A stretch of 64,000 nucleotides of DNA from Taiwanofungus camphoratus (lineage: Eukaryota > Basidiomycota > Agaricomycetes > Polyporales > Taiwanofungaceae). The translations under genes were made by a program, and so were the position numbers. Under the pieces are notes generated by a model. The model worked only from the letters and a program-made list of their open reading frames with translations. It searched no databases and was not told where the DNA came from. Shown here piece by piece: positions 38,466 to 54,218 of this stretch. The stretch covers positions 1,116,001 through 1,180,000 of the forward strand of contig CP021226.1 in assembly GCA_003999685.1 (NCBI GenBank), in the 5' to 3' direction. The first letter of the stretch is position 1. Each line of letters begins with the position of its first letter.

Positions 38466-40105
38466 TTATACCACCATCTTTTTACCCTGTATCCACATCC
38501 CTTCCCTGTTCTGCGCATCTCCAAGACACCACCATTTTTCAATCATGTCGTTGGTCAGCTCCTTCGTCATCCCTCCTTCAGCGGTATCATCAAAAAAGTC
38601 AAGCGGACCAATACCCGTTCCTGACACTGCGTCGTATACTCGAACTATCCAATAGCAAAGTCACATCATAATGTCTTTCAAGTACGCAATGGGGCTCACT
38701 GCACTGTGCATCGAATGCTGCGCCCACCGTGAAAGTTCCGCTACCTTTGGCCAGGCCCAGCGCGATTGCTCCCCCACGAGTAGCAAGATACAACGCCTCT
38801 TTCCAACCTATGGCGAGACTCCCGTTTTTCTCGTCTTGGCCAAGCATACCGTCGGCAGGGCCTATGACCCTCGCTCCTTCGCGCATTCGAGACACCACCA
38901 CTGCCTGTCTCATGCAATTCATAATGTCAATACTGTACCCGCCTGCGATATCCGTGCCAAGCCCGACTTTTACCCCTAGATCCAGGGCTTCGCGGAGGCG
39001 GAAGGGTTCAGCAGAGAAATAGGCATTGGATAATGGACAATGAGCTATTGCTGTGTCGTAGTTCACCATTTGGGCTAGCGAGGGTGGGTCAAGAAACGTG
39101 CAATGCGCTTGGATAGTACGGGGAGTCAGAAGGTCGTTCTAAATTTTTGTAAGACTCTGAAACGGTGCGCTTGACGATCAGTATATTTACGCTAGCGAAC
39201 ACTTCTATGTCGGCGCTTCCACGCTCGCGTTTGACCCATTCCACCTGGTCGTGGGCCTCCGCCATGTGACTTTGTAAACGGAGATTCCGTTCCCGCGCCA
39301 ACTCACCGAGGCCTTTCAGGAGTGCGTCCGAGCAGGTGGGAATGAAGCGCGGCGTGATCACGGGCTCAACGAAGCGATTATGATGTGGTAAATGTGTGAC
39401 AAGATGAATGCATTGGTCGACGAAGGTACGTGCAGACGAAATTGCCATCGCCGCCGAGTCTTCAATATACGTCTGTCGTGATGAGATATCCATGGAAAGC
39501 TTTCCTACGAATGCTCTGATTCCAGCAGCTTGCATAACCTCCGCTAGTATCAAGCTAGAATGAACTGCATGCGTTGGCCGCCCGCACATACCGAAAAGGC
39601 GAGCGAGCGTACTTTGTCTCAGTTTTGATGGTTCCGAACAGGAGGACGGCGCCGGTACCATGCTCCACGAGCCGAGCCGCAAGTCGCCTGTAGACTCTTC
39701 TTGCTAATGACGGATCTACGTCTAAGTTTTCTTCAGCCTTGAATGCGTATTCATTCAGCCACTCCATGAGAGGCAGGTGCAGGCCTGTTCCTTGATATAA
39801 GAACTGGGGGGCATGTAGGTGCAGATCACAGAATGTTGGTAAGAGGAAACTGCCTTGAGGAATCAAGATTGGCAGCTCAGTTTTCCTCTGAATGATCTGC
39901 TGCGATTCTGGGAGTTGTGCGGGTGCGACGTAGTCCAAGAAACCGAACTGATCAACCACTGGAGGATCGAGAGCAGATCTGTTTCAGTCATCAGAAAGTG
40001 ATTAATGGTTGTGGTAATATCCTTGCCTAGTAAATAGTCATGCAAGATTTCGAGTTGACCAAGAGTAGGACAGTGGACAAGGTCGCCTCTCAGCAACATG
40101 GCCAT
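38466..40105 (-). CDS. GUD1: Guanine deaminase
   Basis: Five exons (ascending): 38466-38644, 38700-39138, 39191-39554, 39613-39958, 40027-40105; phases close, giving 468 residues. Amidohydrolase that converts guanine to xanthine (purine salvage/catabolism, cytosolic, zinc). Metal ligands visible: H73 and H75 in FCDLHLHAPQF, His in RLQSHMAEAHDQVEWV, His in IQAHCTFLDPPSLAQM, Asp in KVGLGTDIAGGYS. Also FVGKLSMDISSRQTYIE of the family. Intron 1 (39959-40026) has a GC donor (CTAG/GCAAGG) and CTCCAG acceptor; only this choice restores frame. Head to head with the EBP-like gene; convergent with the BTB gene 238 bp away. Confidence 0.95.
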
Positions 40106-45549: not shown

Positions 45550-47337
45550 AACGTGGTGCGCTGATGAGTCCCGTAGCCTCCTGGGCCTCGAATTGCGATT
45601 TTAGGAGCTTTCTAATCCCCCAACCGATCACTCTAAGACTCTTCTACAGCCTACGACAGGAGGGATAGGTCCCTATAATATTCCTAACGCCCCCTTTCCT
45701 TCCTAAACCCTCCTAACACCCTACGAAGTCTTGTGAAGTCACACGAGGTGCTACGAGGTTTCGAATGCTAGACGCAAAGTCCCTAACTCCTGCTAAGTCC
45801 ACTATCGGACACTGCCGGTCCTCCCATACTGTTCCATTGGATCTAGGTCCTATCTACTACGTCACTCATCCTGGGCTTAGCTAAGAAGTCTTAGCTAAGT
45901 CTCTCCTAGCTCTTGTGATTGCAGCTACCTCCAATAGGCTCCGAAACGGTCCAAAGTTCCGGAAGTTGGACTTAGGAAGCCTTGCGCACCCCATGGGTCT
46001 CGATCCTATGCCATAAGGTCATCCTAGGGCGTATCCATATGGCCCTCCACCCAGTTAGGACACCTCCTACCCCGATTAGGCCAAGTCCCGCTGCTAAGAA
46101 CTTCGTGCGCTCTTAGCCCACTAAGATAGGTGATCACGGTGCATGGCTGCTCTCGGATAGTCATTCCGCCCTCGTGAATGAAGTTGGTCACCTTTCTACC
46201 GTACGTAGTTTCCCTGTTTCAGTTCCTATTTAGTTCCTATCCTCCTCGTGTTCACTTCGGAGCCCATGCGCTTTAGTACACATTTCGGACTCGTAAGGAT
46301 CACTTCGCGCAAGAATAGTTCACCTCACGCTCCCCTATTTAGTCAGAGGTAGTTTACTATGTAAGAGAGAGACCCCTCAGTGCACGCTTCTCTCTTCGGA
46401 ATACAAAGTTCCCCTGTAGCTCCGATCTCAGGAAAGCGTCACGAGTACAACCTTAGGAATGGTCCTAAGGCCCCTAAGTCTCCACCCCAGCTCCGTTTCA
46501 GTACCTTTGAACTACGTCTACGCTCGCGATATATCTACGAACCACGTTTACGCTTCCCGAACTACGCACTATGATCTACGAAGTCGCCGTGACTTCGTGC
46601 CCTTCAGCACCTCTTATAGCACCTATCCGGTGGGCCTCCGTCTTAGTTATACCCTTAGGCTCACGTTGCGTCATCCCTACGTCCTACGAATAACCCTACG
46701 ACTCCCCCATAGCCTTCATTACAGGCTATAGTACATCTCTCTACGCCCTCGAACTCTCCGACCCACACCTCGAAGTCATCAGACACTTCAGAGCTTCCAG
46801 CAACCTCGTTCCCCCATTCCTATTCCAAGTATTAGCTCTCCAAACCATCCGACCTCTCCTACAAGTCTCCTACGCTAGCCAAATCTCGCCCACCTCGCTC
46901 TAACAAACCTCTAAGCCTTACGCCCTTTAGCTAACTCTAGCTAAAAGGACTTTGCAGCAGTCTCGTACCCTCTGCCGCTTAGTAGAAATTATAGTCCATT
47001 GGCTTATTGCTCCCTAACTCTATACAGCCTACGAAGTCAGCTCGCGCGATTTAGCTAAAACTTCGAAGGACTTCGCAGAATCTCGAAGGACTTCGCGTAC
47101 TTCGGAGGGCCTCGCAAGGCCTTAGGGATTGTATAGCACTTAGGAACAAGATCCTGTTGTGCAGGACCCTTGACCCCTTACTCCCCTACTTACAAAAGCA
47201 AGACATACAGGTTTCCCAGTATCATACAGGTTGTAGCTCCTACCCTCACATCCTCACAGTTATCACACTACCCCACAGCCCCGTTGCGGAGCACTCCCTA
47301 GGTACCAGGGTCCCCTAGGTCGTATCAGCGCCCACAA
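45550..47337 (-). mobile_element. Probable LTR-type fossil (large LTR or LTR remnant), family uncertain
   Basis: About 1.8 kb with its own word usage (many CTACGAAG, TAGCTAAG, CCTAGG words), no coding capacity and no similarity to the flanking genes. Read on the minus strand the right edge opens TGTGGGCGCTGATACGACC, which resembles an LTR start. No paired LTR or internal coding region is in the window, so it would be a solo or partial LTR, clearly old. The left edge is not resolved. Confidence 0.35.
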
Positions 47338-47730: not shown

Positions 47731-49198
47731 TTACCACTTGAATCTGGGCTTCATGTCTGCAATGAGACACAATTTCTTGCTTTTGTACTGGTGGCCCATT
47801 GCTTGTATTTCAGCCACCCTCAACCAAATCTTCTCCTTGGTGAGCTGCCATTCACGTAGGACTGCATTAGCACCTGCCACCAGATCAGCTTCGGATTGCC
47901 AAGTATCATCTTCGGGACTATATCCAGCCCAGCGGACAAGGTACCGTGTTGGTCCCTTCTCTGCTACAATGTGGGAGACTTCATATTGTGGTTCCGGATC
48001 AGCCGGATCAACTGGAGGAGGCCGCGTCAGTCTGATCGACGGGCGATGAGGCTTGAGCCAATGTTTCGGCAAGTCGGCAGTGAGCGTCTTCCTCCTTGGA
48101 ATGAAGGCGCGCTTCGCAACCTTTTTTCTTTTCCCCGTAATGTCCGGCCAGCGTGCCCTAGAGTACTTCTCGCACTCGCACAATGAATGCTCCAGGTCGA
48201 CCATCGTCACATGGCCCCGTCGGGTGTCGCACAGCCTGGGGACGCGGTCAGGGGCAATACCCAGGCGGGCGAAATGGACGTGCTGCGTTGAATGAAGATA
48301 CTTGAGCGCTTCAAACTCGTTCCCGCGGACGCCCGGACCGAAAATTTTGCGAATGCACTCTAAAGATCCTGGGCCGAGCGCCACCCATTCATCTTCATCG
48401 AAATCAAAATGCGGCAGCATGTTCAGATCAAGAAGAAGCCTGCAGAGAATTGGGTCCGATCAGATGGAAGCAAGAAATGCAATGATTAGAATCAAAAACA
48501 TACTGCAGAGACGTGAAATCTCCCATCGCGGGGAACAAGGAAAGCCACCCGTGTGCATCTTTCAAGTGACGAAACCTCTTCAGCTGTCCGGGAACATCTT
48601 CCTGCATCATTAAGTCAATGAGACGCAAGTGGTTAGAAGCATTTGCATATGCGCCAAGTTTCGGCGCAGGTATGATATATGCATGTCCGTACACGGCAGT
48701 GCCCGCCGATAGAAGTACGTTTTCGTATCTGTTCACGTCGAAGTCCTTCCACGTTATATTTTTGAATCGGGACTTGAGTAACTCCCACGTCTCGATTTTA
48801 TTGAATAGCCGGAACAATATGACACGGAAGCAGGATTCGTGGAGATCTTGACTTCCTTCCCATATGACATGTCGCAAAATATATTGGGTTGTGCGGTCGT
48901 ACACACGAAAGACGTTCGTGAACGGATAAGCTGCAAGGATAGGATCCTTTGTCCATGGCGTGGGATCCCCTGCAATGCGACGCTGATAGATATGGTGTCG
49001 TTCGGCCATGAAGTAGAACAGTGTGTCAAGTATTGGGGAGACACGTAGCCGCTGTCCACTGATTGTGACTGATTTGGGTGGCGGACCTTTTGACTTGAAT
49101 CGGAAAAGAGGTGTCAAATGGGAAGGACCGCGTTGTCCTCGCTGTGACTGCTTTCTTGTGGTTTTATAACCAAGTGGGTGGTGTCGGACACGGGTCAT
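47731..49198 (-). CDS. 5-hmdU-DNA-kinase-type helical domain protein with C-terminal chromodomain
   Basis: Two exons 47731-48439 and 48504-49198 (64 bp intron) give 467 residues, intact. Residues about 52-335 match from memory the helical domain named after phage 5-hydroxymethyl-deoxyuridine DNA kinases and common in basidiomycetes: FYFMAERHHIYQRR, WTKDPILAAYPFTNVFRVYD, FRVILFRLFNKIETWELL, AYIIPAPKLGAYANASNHL, FPAMGDFTSLQLLLDLNM, GPGSLECIRKIFGPGV, and HVTMVDLEHSLCECEKYSR. Residues about 384-430 form a chromodomain: YEVSHIVAEK, RYLVRWAGYSPEDDTWQSE, ANAVLREW. The domain has been linked computationally to thymine hypermodification; its enzymatic role in fungi is not known to me. The chromodomain suggests binding to methylated histone tails. 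Start 49198 chosen; an in-frame ATG at 49246 is possible. Confidence 0.82.
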
Positions 49199-50914: not shown

Positions 50915-52619
50915 TTAATCGTGCACATCGGAATTTAATGATATGGTAGGAAGGGGCACATCGGAACACTGAATGTCAAACATCATAATTATTTGCCGAC
51001 CGTTCAGCAGATTTACATGACACTTACTGGTTGCTCGACATCGGAACGACTTTTTCCACTAGGATATTCAACAGGTAGATTCCAAGGTGGAGGAACGGGT
51101 ATGACGAAGGAACAATCGACAAGGTTGTCGTGCCCTTGATTTGCTAATTTGACCATGGCATTGCGGAACGCCGAGCGGAGCCCTTCCTGGTTATCTGAAG
51201 AAATATAATTTTGTGCCATTTAGCACATGCCCTTGGTAGGCGCGTCAAGTCAGATGGTTCTACGATACATACCGATGAATGACTGCCATTCACATGCAGT
51301 ACTGGTGTGCCGAGCAATTGCGGCATCAGAAGCAAGTCGAAACTCGTGCTCGATTGGCGACTTCGATTGAGCTGGGCCCCGTCCCTTTCCCGGGTATCTG
51401 GTACCTCTTAACAGAGTCTTCAAATTAAGATGGTGAGCTTAACAGCGTGCCGGCACACGACAATCTCCATAATTACCTCTAAGTAAAATTGGGTGTCGAA
51501 TATTCTGGGGGTGCTGTCTAGAGGAGAATCTGGGATACTAGGGTCTATCGTTTTCTGCACAGCGATAGAGTGGGCGGCCAGCAGTGCCACAGTATCTCCC
51601 GCGTTGAACCCAGCGTCTGCCATTCGGGACAAAATCTTTTCGACAGGATCCGTAGGCAACGGAAGGAGGTTTGGAGGGGAGGGAGCGATAGCTTCGGGGC
51701 GCCCGGCGTAGAACCTTAAACGAGGGCTTCCGGGACAGTTCGAGAGGGCCACAGCTCCAGCAAACTGAATCCTATTAGAGGTCGACGCCGAAGTACTGGC
51801 TATAAAAAAACCATTTAATACGACTCATTGTGACGCACATATCGCCATAGCTGACTTCATGGCCGTCGGCAAAGTGTTTCAGCGTATAGACCATCTCCTC
51901 CAGACCTTCATTGGCGGCTATCAAGAGTGATCAGTCACAGTAACCGGAAGATAGAAGTGTGGAAGGACTTGCGGTATGCCAATTCGGTATGCGCGAATTG
52001 GATTATGCTACCGTCTGCAAAGCGTAAAGCCGACATTTCCAAATTCAATGTTCATATCTAGGGTTGAGAATTCATTACCTGCACCTCCCCCACTAATCAC
52101 AAGGATTTCAACATCTTGTGTGATTTAACTCTATGCTGGAGCTCACCCAAAGGTCCCAGAAGCTCGCAGTGCAGCAGAACGACCTACAGCATCATGAAAG
52201 GTGAGTCGAATGGCTTCACGCGCCTGGTCATTACATTGTCCTTCATGAAATCTTCTCGAATTGATTAGGTACAATGCACACAAAAAGCATTCGCAAAACC
52301 GGCCCACAGGTTAGCTTGCAGTTCATTCAGGACCTAATAAGACATTTTAGCGGCGCACACAGTTAGCATGAACAAAGACGGTCGCACGTTGGACCATCTA
52401 TCACATTGCTACATGATTCATGTCAGATAACCGTGCTGCTGATATTGTGGTAACACTCGCATAGGCATTGGTATGGTTACTCAGAGCAATAGCTACTTTC
52501 GACAGACTTTGCATGGGAGCTTGCGCTTTAGATGAATGAACAGCGTGTAGCGTACCTGACGTCACAAATACGCCACAATATACAACGAATGATACAAAAA
52601 TATGTGTTGACGACCGCAT
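50915..52619 (-). CDS. Class II heme peroxidase, generic (Coprinopsis CiP-like) type
   Basis: Nine exons are firm (ascending): 50915-50968, 51028-51194, 51273-51417, 51477-51795, 51839-51917, 51973-52014, 52079-52092, 52147-52240, 52300-52333, coding 315 residues. Distal heme side [13 protein letters not shown], calcium/heme region [37 protein letters not shown], proximal His in [11 protein letters not shown], then [16 protein letters not shown] and ACEWQSF. The third Mn(II)-ligand position holds Lys and the ligninase surface Trp position holds Ala, so neither Mn-peroxidase nor lignin peroxidase: a generic peroxidase oxidising phenolic or low-potential substrates. Intron 51918-51972 is GC-AG. 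The N-terminus is unresolved: a signal-peptide exon starting at 52619 ([19 protein letters not shown]) is likely, but the linking exon reads HANC with one Cys where two are expected and its intron would be only 25 nt. Confidence 0.85.
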
Positions 52620-52951: not shown

Positions 52952-54218
52952 ATGCCAGGTCGACATTATTCCAAATTTATACCTCCAAGTTTGTCTATGA
53001 GCGAGCTCATCTGCCAGAAATTGGACAACGACGCTACAGACCTCCTCATCGATAAATGGCTCGAGCGACCACATCGTCCCGACGCATATTATGACTGGTT
53101 CCAGCGAGTACGAGAGCGCAGGCACGCTGCAACCGCCAATGTTCGAAGAGAACAGATTTTACTGTGGAATAAGGGTATATTTGTCCCTGAGAATATCTTC
53201 ACCCGCACTGTGGACACCGGGCGTCTCATTCCCCTCGATCGTACATGGGTGACCCATGTATATCACCACAAGTCTATGTCAAGACTCAATATGATGCCTG
53301 TAATTTTCAGCATGGTAAGCATCGTTAATGATCTTTTCAAGATGAACCTTTACTAACGATGATATGCCATAGCTTCCCGAGCTTATGCTCCTTCGGGGCA
53401 TGCACGATCGCGGTTGCGATGAAATATATGTCATTGTTACCGATTTGAAACGCCAGGAGATGGATGAAGTGACGGAATACTTCAAATATGTCTGCCAGAA
53501 TGCAGTTAATGGGTCGTGCAAAGCGAGTGTAGAGCAAAAAATTAATCATGACCGTCAGTCTTCTTTCGTAACTTCATAAAGTTTGCCATCCAACGAGGAT
53601 TTTCCGATTTTCAAAACAGACATGCACCTAACACATGCCCTCGATCGACAGCGTCGCACTCCGTGTTTTCCTCAGATCGATCTTACACTACGAGCGATCC
53701 TATATGAGAAGCGCCCTCCTTTCGTCGTCTTATTCTCCCACCAGGCCATGTCCTACTCTCAGATTCTTTTCGCCAACTCGCTTTCTGTACCTTCGAAAGA
53801 TGTCTATTACGATTTCCCCAGTGGCTGTCCCAATCCTGGCTGTACAGATAACTGCTGTGAGCTCATCCGTTTCCCGAAGAAGGGTCTCGAGACTGCGGCA
53901 GTACTTTGCTATAAGCGGAAGGTCCGCTACCGCTACGGACGCCGAGCGAAGGCTAAGGAGATGTGTAACTGGATTGACTGTCATACGTGCTTCTTGGACG
54001 AGTCTGCTCATGGTGTGCCGCCTAGCGAGGGATGTAGCGAAGGGAGTATAGCGGGGAGCAGTGAGGGGAGCGATGGGTCGCTGGAAGAGACGAATGCTTC
54101 GAAGTTCGCGGGCCTTGTCTGCAGCAGGTGCAAGTTGGTGAAATACTGTTCACCTGAGCATCAGAAGCTGGACTGGGAAGAACACAGGCGGGTTTGTGCC
54201 AAACCCCTAGCGGACTAA
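52952..54218 (+). CDS. MYND-type zinc-finger protein
   Basis: Three exons 52952-53314, 53373-53553, 53620-54218 give 380 residues. The C-terminal MYND module is split: the first Cys pair is in CNWIDCHTC, then about 38 Ser/Gly/Glu-rich residues, then VCSRCKLVKYCSPEHQKLDW and EEHRRVC. The ligand pattern is C-x2-C, C-x2-C-x4-C-x3-H, H-x3-C; the sixth ligand, usually Cys (KECQ), is His. The N-terminal 250 residues have no known domain but hold an unusual Cys cluster (CPNPGCTDNCC). MYND fingers mediate protein-protein contacts with proline-rich motifs; role here unknown. Confidence 0.85.

Follow-up and report, generated by a model that had tools for sequence, protein, structure and literature searches.

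Introduction

The locus described here raises the question of what a fungal protein might do in which HMUDK_hel, a helical domain that carries 'kinase' in its name, is joined to a chromodomain. The gene lies in a window of 64 000 nucleotides of Taiwanofungus camphoratus DNA (the whole stretch analysed), for which an earlier note, made from the sequence alone, had described an intact fusion of a phage-type helical domain with a chromodomain and had proposed that a base-modification or base-recognition activity would thereby be brought to methylated histones. The observation is confirmed by the present analysis; the interpretation is partly supported, in a weaker form and with the source and the chemistry of the helical domain corrected. 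No title or abstract on a fusion of these two domains was found among open-licence literature listings. Should the joint function be real, modified DNA bases and histone-marked silent chromatin would be connected in a fungus by this protein, which would then be a direct candidate for the step still missing downstream of TET/JBP oxidation and an instance of bacterial antiviral machinery turned against transposons. Whatever its activity, the closest kin found lie in bacterial cassettes beside defence-like genes, and the chromodomain looks as if it came from a retrotransposon; even for an inactive protein, HMUDK_hel is re-assigned, the word 'kinase' in the domain name being misleading for the fungal chain.

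Gene structure and domain organization

The gene occupies positions 47731-49198 on the minus strand and consists, as had been noted earlier, of two exons joined by a GT-AG intron, the spliced frame being intact and encoding 467 residues followed by a stop codon. Exon 1 (48504..49198, minus strand) contains the start codon, an N-terminal tail and the first part of HMUDK_hel, and accounts for residues 1-231 and two bases of codon 232. The intron (48440..48503, minus strand) is 64 bp long with 39% GC, and displays a GTATGT donor, a CTAATC branch-like site and a CAG acceptor. Exon 2 (47731..48439, minus strand) encodes the remainder of HMUDK_hel (to residue 333), a linker with the motif TRPPP at residues 370-374, the chromodomain (residues 387-430), a C-terminal tail and the stop codon, the linker and chromodomain being placed by Pfam and by comparison with the organism's own genome. 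The GC content at the three codon positions of the spliced gene (0.571/0.423/0.547) shows the pattern usual for coding sequence, which argues that the gene is coding, and the splice is supported by the continuation of the HMUDK_hel domain without loss across the intron.

The succession of a long helical domain and a chromodomain was borne out by an HMM search, in which HMUDK_hel (PF18723) matched residues 55-333 over profile positions 2-280 of 281 with 365 bits (E 3.4e-109, cut-off 25), and Chromo (PF00385) matched residues 387-430 with 35.4 bits (E 9.9e-9, cut-off 25.1). The sole further Pfam match at E<=1 was DUF3288 (E 0.023), which is below its cut-off. When the genome (33.19 Mb in 15 contigs) was searched frame by frame, ignoring introns, HMUDK_hel, described in the earlier note as expanded in basidiomycetes, was found once, as the two exons of this gene; a multi-copy transposon gene is ruled out by this single occurrence. 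Bacterial contamination is likewise ruled out, by the intron, by the chromodomain and by the place of the gene on contig C7, which has other matches up to position 2.39 Mb.

Origin of the chromodomain

The earlier description of the chromodomain as well formed also stands, since its reading frame is intact and so are all three residues of a putative aromatic cage, Tyr384 (in YEVS), Trp402 and Tyr405 (both in RWAGY). These we take, by analogy with HP1, to be the residues that would hold methyl-lysine. Among the solved chromodomains with a sequence match are those of CDYL, Clr4 and chromo domain-containing protein 1 (best E 8.3e-7), and the fungal loop is four residues shorter than that of CDYL.

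Comparison of residues 364-467 with the organism's own genome, excluding the gene itself, gave chromodomains as the best matches (33-46% identity) in 13 of the 14 loci compared, preceded by the linker TRPPP in ten of these 13 and by TKPPP or TEPPP in the other three. The 350 residues upstream of these chromodomains contained an integrase zinc-binding domain, an integrase core and a Tf2-1-like SH3 domain in all four cases scanned, and chromo-type matches in the genome number at least 150 (150 of 271 candidates were scored), often inside open frames longer than 1000 codons. Linker and chromodomain share their organization with Tf2/Ty3-type (chromovirus) integrases, in which an xPPP linker also precedes the chromodomain, whereas the fungal protein lacks integrase and polymerase and has its chromodomain joined to HMUDK_hel instead. 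Because the matching linker sits outside the chromodomain proper, common descent is the simplest reading, and both segments were probably derived from the tail of such an integrase. The low identity speaks against a recent capture from the copies now present.

Phage relatives of HMUDK_hel

At E<=1, a tblastn search matched 494 of 50,697 phage records, with identities below 60% throughout. The phage proteins, among them YuA gp14, Sonora 042, LysYB1 0051, the SP10 5-hmdU DNA kinase and a PhiW-14 protein, share the domain and its motifs with the fungal protein; they differ from it in their low identity to the fungal domain (22-31% among the 40 matches listed of the 494) and, in YuA, Sonora and LysYB1, in being encoded beside or near a kinase of family PF18748. 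The HMUDK_hel gene directly follows the kinase gene in YuA (L012) and Sonora (L011) and is separated from it by one small gene in LysYB1 (L015). YuA and Sonora also carry an amino acid:DNA transferase gene, and a thymidylate-synthase-type gene is annotated in YuA, Sonora, LysYB1 and LuckyBarnes (recognized by Pfam too in the last two), that of YuA as a putative deoxyuridylate hydroxymethyltransferase. In LuckyBarnes two TET-associated-glycosyltransferase genes adjoin HMUDK_hel, and no kinase was noticed. A base-modification neighbour (kinase, thymidylate-synthase-type or TET-associated glycosyltransferase) was thus present in four of the five phage records examined; in the fifth, a Nodularia phage (L014), kinase, thymidylate-synthase-type and glycosyltransferase neighbours were not found in the stretch seen, which argues against a fixed phage partnership. 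The portion of a jumbo-phage survey that was available contained nothing of the HMUDK_hel family.

Bacterial relatives and their defence-like cassettes

Among GTDB genomes, at least 451 of 587 candidate stretches encode HMUDK_hel relatives, of which the best 80 were retained (33-40% identity to the fungal domain). Identities of 41, 37 and 33% were obtained for three contigs from a viral collection that look like bacterial islands. On plasmids the family occurs in 22 of 72,556 records, seven of them conjugative, and two of three plasmid examples inspected display most of the cassette described below. The bacterial proteins, annotated as 'nucleotide kinase domain-containing protein' or 'putative DNA base hypermodification protein', are homologous to the fungal domain over its full length (33-41% identity in the loci kept), have its signature motifs and, in most chains, lack a fused kinase; they differ in that HTH, ImmA/IrrE, TS-like and MazG genes accompany them in cassettes, whereas the fungal gene stands alone.

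Neighbours were clustered from mechanically called frames within 5 kb to either side of the gene in the 85 loci, out of 89 submitted, that yielded a family frame, and each cluster received its Pfam label from one representative. MazG was found 53 times, ImmA/IrrE 48, XRE 28, ThsB-type TIR 19 and 8 (two clusters), TIR-SLOG 10, thymidylate synthase 15, Nmad2 14 and ACPS 11; a TS-like cluster (43), whose representative had no Pfam match, was named after the plasmid annotation 'thymidylate synthase' in the same gene order, and an ACP-like one (12) was also labelled from plasmid annotation. A MazG, TS-like or thymidylate synthase neighbour accompanies 72 of the 85 genes and a TIR gene 24, while 12 have no partner class. 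A thymidylate-kinase-like domain is fused to HMUDK_hel in seven loci and matches separately in 20 more, strongly in seven (E <1e-60) and weakly in 13 (E 1e-8 to 1e-20), the weak matches possibly being other kinases.

A widespread form of the cassette (loci L016, L017, L018, L172, L305 and L306) comprises HTH, ImmA/IrrE, TS-like, HMUDK_hel and MazG_C genes, to which ACP, ACPS, dCTP deaminase, Nmad2 or TIR may be added, and its HMUDK_hel is sometimes fused to a thymidylate-kinase-like domain. A second gene of the HMUDK_hel family is present in each of three other bacterial loci, at L115:3020-3994 (minus strand), L102:15030-16004 (plus strand) and L127:5473-6447 (minus strand). A nucleotide search with a Rhodoferax cassette found no match in E. 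coli. PADLOC recognized the TIR genes and returned no match to any HMUDK_hel domain. In the available part of a 2026 Science paper, 5-hydroxymethyluracil kinase and thymidylate synthase are among the domains first validated in anti-phage systems, and a figure legend names dNMP kinase, 5-hmdU DNA kinase and NMAD (PMC13092281); the validated '5hmdUk' may correspond to the HMUDK_hel cassette. The bacterial cassette looks like a nucleotide-centred immune system that would merit study in its own right.

Since most of the bacterial partners (MazG, dCTP deaminase and thymidylate kinase) act on free nucleotides, the substrate of the domain may not be DNA. The fungal protein might then act on free nucleotides or in fungal immunity, as the bacterial cassettes seem to do, with the chromodomain merely localizing it to the nucleus or chromatin. 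The frequency of MazG, TS-like or thymidylate synthase genes, of TIR genes and of fused thymidylate-kinase-like domains in the 85 loci is in favour of such a role, as is the newly validated 5-hydroxymethyluracil kinase domain of anti-phage systems (PMC13092281). We nevertheless regard it as unlikely, given that the HMUDK kinase is unmatched in the genome (see below), that the chromodomain points to chromatin and that no cassette partner accompanies the gene: 13 nearby frames, taken from the 57 stop-to-stop frames of at least 140 residues in the window apart from one shorter frame, were checked by Pfam, and none of them is a modification, nucleotide-metabolism or bacterial-cassette partner.

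Ancestry of the helical domain

A tree was built from 112 rows (47 GTDB loci, three islands, 56 viral contigs, five named phages and the fungal row). It places the fungal domain among the cellular bacterial rows, where it groups with 12 bacteria and one island (SH-aLRT 95), at the end of a long branch of 1.89 changes per column. An alternative topology, in which 52 cellular rows stay together and the fungal one lies outside them, is not rejected (p-AU 0.594) and has a slightly higher likelihood, so that descent from inside the actinobacterial set is insecure. The label 'phage-type' given to the domain in the earlier note was dropped as unproven: bacterial chromosomal proteins are nearer by identity (up to 41%, against 22-31% among the 40 phage matches listed), and the tree agrees, within the limit set by the unrejected alternative. 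A bacterial-type rather than a phage-type domain is suggested mainly by these identities.

Predicted fold

The fold was modelled on a bacterial homologue, L016, which is 41% identical to the fungal protein, using an alignment of 83 rows. The model is mostly helical (pLDDT 94.5, pTM 0.91), and its top match in the PDB, a weak one (E 0.19), is 8z2m, the 5-PmdU glycinyltransferase gp46/PUGT of a PaMx phage, which itself has a sequence match to the YuA transferase (E 1e-92). Second comes an 8-oxoG glycosylase (E 0.85), with AlkA in sixth place (E 1.6) and mouse OGG1 lower (E 3.0), all of them weak; the glycosylase-type matches 3knt, 2yg8 and mouse OGG1, which have the helix-hairpin-helix DNA glycosylase fold, span E 0.85-4.3. 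No PDB match reached E <0.1, and unrelated helical proteins are intermixed. Against viral models the best match was the SP10 '5-hmdU DNA kinase' (E 7.2e-15), ahead of three proteins named as amino acid:DNA transferases at E 5.3e-3 to 1.3e-2 (probability 1.00). Profile comparison with 19 such transferases gave E 6e-4 with a probability of only 28, pairing the hairpin and C-terminal Cys motifs, and a PDB profile search with 83 homologues returned three matches with E values of 10 or less, designed proteins in two cases. Amino acid:DNA transferases (PF18724; PaMx gp46/PUGT, 8z2m) weakly resemble the bacterial homologue in predicted fold and in the hairpin and C-terminal Cys motifs, but constitute a separate Pfam family, which the fungal protein does not match by sequence at E<=1. 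A model of the kinase-helical fusion L172 was also obtained (pLDDT 90.7); its pTM of 0.63 leaves the mutual placement of the two domains uncertain, and the model was set aside for that reason.

Conserved residues and catalytic potential

Kinase chemistry, implied by the domain name in the earlier description, did not survive the analysis. The fungal protein matches no P-loop kinase family of Pfam at E<=1, and the genome, searched frame by frame, contains no match to the 5-hmdU kinase family PF18748 at E<=1, a search that an exon-split gene could escape and whose control was positive, below the cut-off, in one of 14 genomes. Since both searches came out empty, the protein is not considered to be a kinase.

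The fungal protein keeps 25 of the 28 positions that are at least 85% conserved among 83 homologues, and 49 of 65 positions across 32 closer rows; the residues kept include Arg98, Asp101, Asp236, Cys319, Glu320 and Lys323. The three changes are Asn186, where 96% of the 83 homologues have lysine, Cys260, where all have glycine, and Lys335, where 89% have glycine. This pattern argues for a fold that has been kept and a chemistry that has been altered or lost, and catalysis by the fungal HMUDK_hel is doubtful because Asn186 replaces a lysine that 96% of the homologues share and Cys260 a glycine that is invariant among them.

An active enzyme would modify or remove a 5-substituted pyrimidine in silenced repeats, acting like a transferase or glycosylase on TET products and being steered by its chromodomain. 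Such an activity could draw on the weak resemblance of the modelled homologue to glycine:DNA transferase and glycosylases, on the retention of most conserved residues and on the Tet_JBP sequences present in the genome. It appears improbable, however, in view of the lost near-invariant lysine and invariant glycine, the lack of a match in the fungal protein to the Pfam amino acid:DNA transferase family at E<=1 and the empty search for the kinase family whose phosphorylation step would make a base ready for a transferase.

The same two substitutions, together with the long branch and the single copy in the genome, could instead mark a decayed or neutral fusion, in which a horizontally acquired domain was trapped beside a retrotransposon tail and the two have no selected joint function. 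A dispersed repeat that adjoins the gene is in keeping with this: the repeat-like block noticed earlier proved to be a real interspersed repeat of ~1.77 kb (45559..47330, no strand assigned), outside the gene and 400 bp from its 3' end, in which the longest listed frame has ~100 residues. It has at least 39 other near-full-length copies at 89-97% identity (37 of the 39 at 95-97%), a lower bound given that 40 of 517 candidates were scored, as well as fragments, and because at least 40 dispersed copies exist its vicinity says nothing specific about the gene. Neutrality seems quite unlikely for a gene with 467 open codons and a clean intron, whose helical domain is full-length with 25 of 28 conserved positions and whose cage residues are intact.

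A possible reader of modified bases on silent chromatin

Our tentative preference is for a chromatin-tethered base-recognition protein, a reading that we hold as possible and that keeps, in weaker form, the recognition half of the activity proposed earlier; the modification half is weakened by the changes at Asn186 and Cys260. HMUDK_hel would most likely grip DNA and accommodate a flipped 5-substituted pyrimidine, as may be supposed because the modelled fold resembles both the glycine:DNA transferase and the helix-hairpin-helix glycosylases. At silenced repeats, the cage of the chromodomain would anchor the protein by binding methylated histone H3 (H3K9me, probably), and there the helical domain would inspect the DNA and read, rather than make, a modified base, TET-oxidised cytosine and 5hmU being the candidates; reading is favoured over catalysis because conserved residues have changed. 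DNA binding, base flipping, histone-mark binding and the preference for reading over making are all inferred. Tet_JBP and Pre-SET matches in the genome form part of the evidence for base recognition, and so do the full-length family match, the 25 conserved positions kept and the base-modification neighbours in four of the five phage records.

That the host possesses TET/JBP base-oxidising enzymes, as had been said of basidiomycetes in the note, is supported by 11 Tet_JBP matches found frame by frame with introns ignored. The same search found 15 KDZ transposase matches, and eight of the 11 Tet_JBP matches, on contigs C5, C9, C11, C12 and C13, lie within 15 kb of one of them. This pairing agrees with the TET-bearing fungal transposons described in the available part of a published account (PMC12730594). 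A more far-reaching scenario, which we consider a long shot, is that a bacterial domain of the anti-phage kind was captured and fused to a retrotransposon chromodomain to yield a heterochromatin-guided factor able to recognize or process oxidised pyrimidines produced by transposon-borne TET/JBP enzymes, an immune module thus being re-aimed at transposons.

Genomic context

The genome contains one Pre-SET match and five DNA_methylase matches; searches for the chromo-shadow domain and for MazG_C gave no match, with controls that were equally silent, so that neither search is informative. Among the 13 frames scanned near the gene, those with matches were a peroxidase-family frame (51420-51824, minus strand; E 3.1e-13), ~2.2 kb upstream of the HMUDK_hel gene, a MYND finger frame (53580-54215) and three frames of an amidohydrolase gene (38602-39983, minus strand), all assigned by Pfam; the remaining frames had nothing over a curated Pfam cut-off. 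By eye, the amidohydrolase frames appear guanine deaminase-like.
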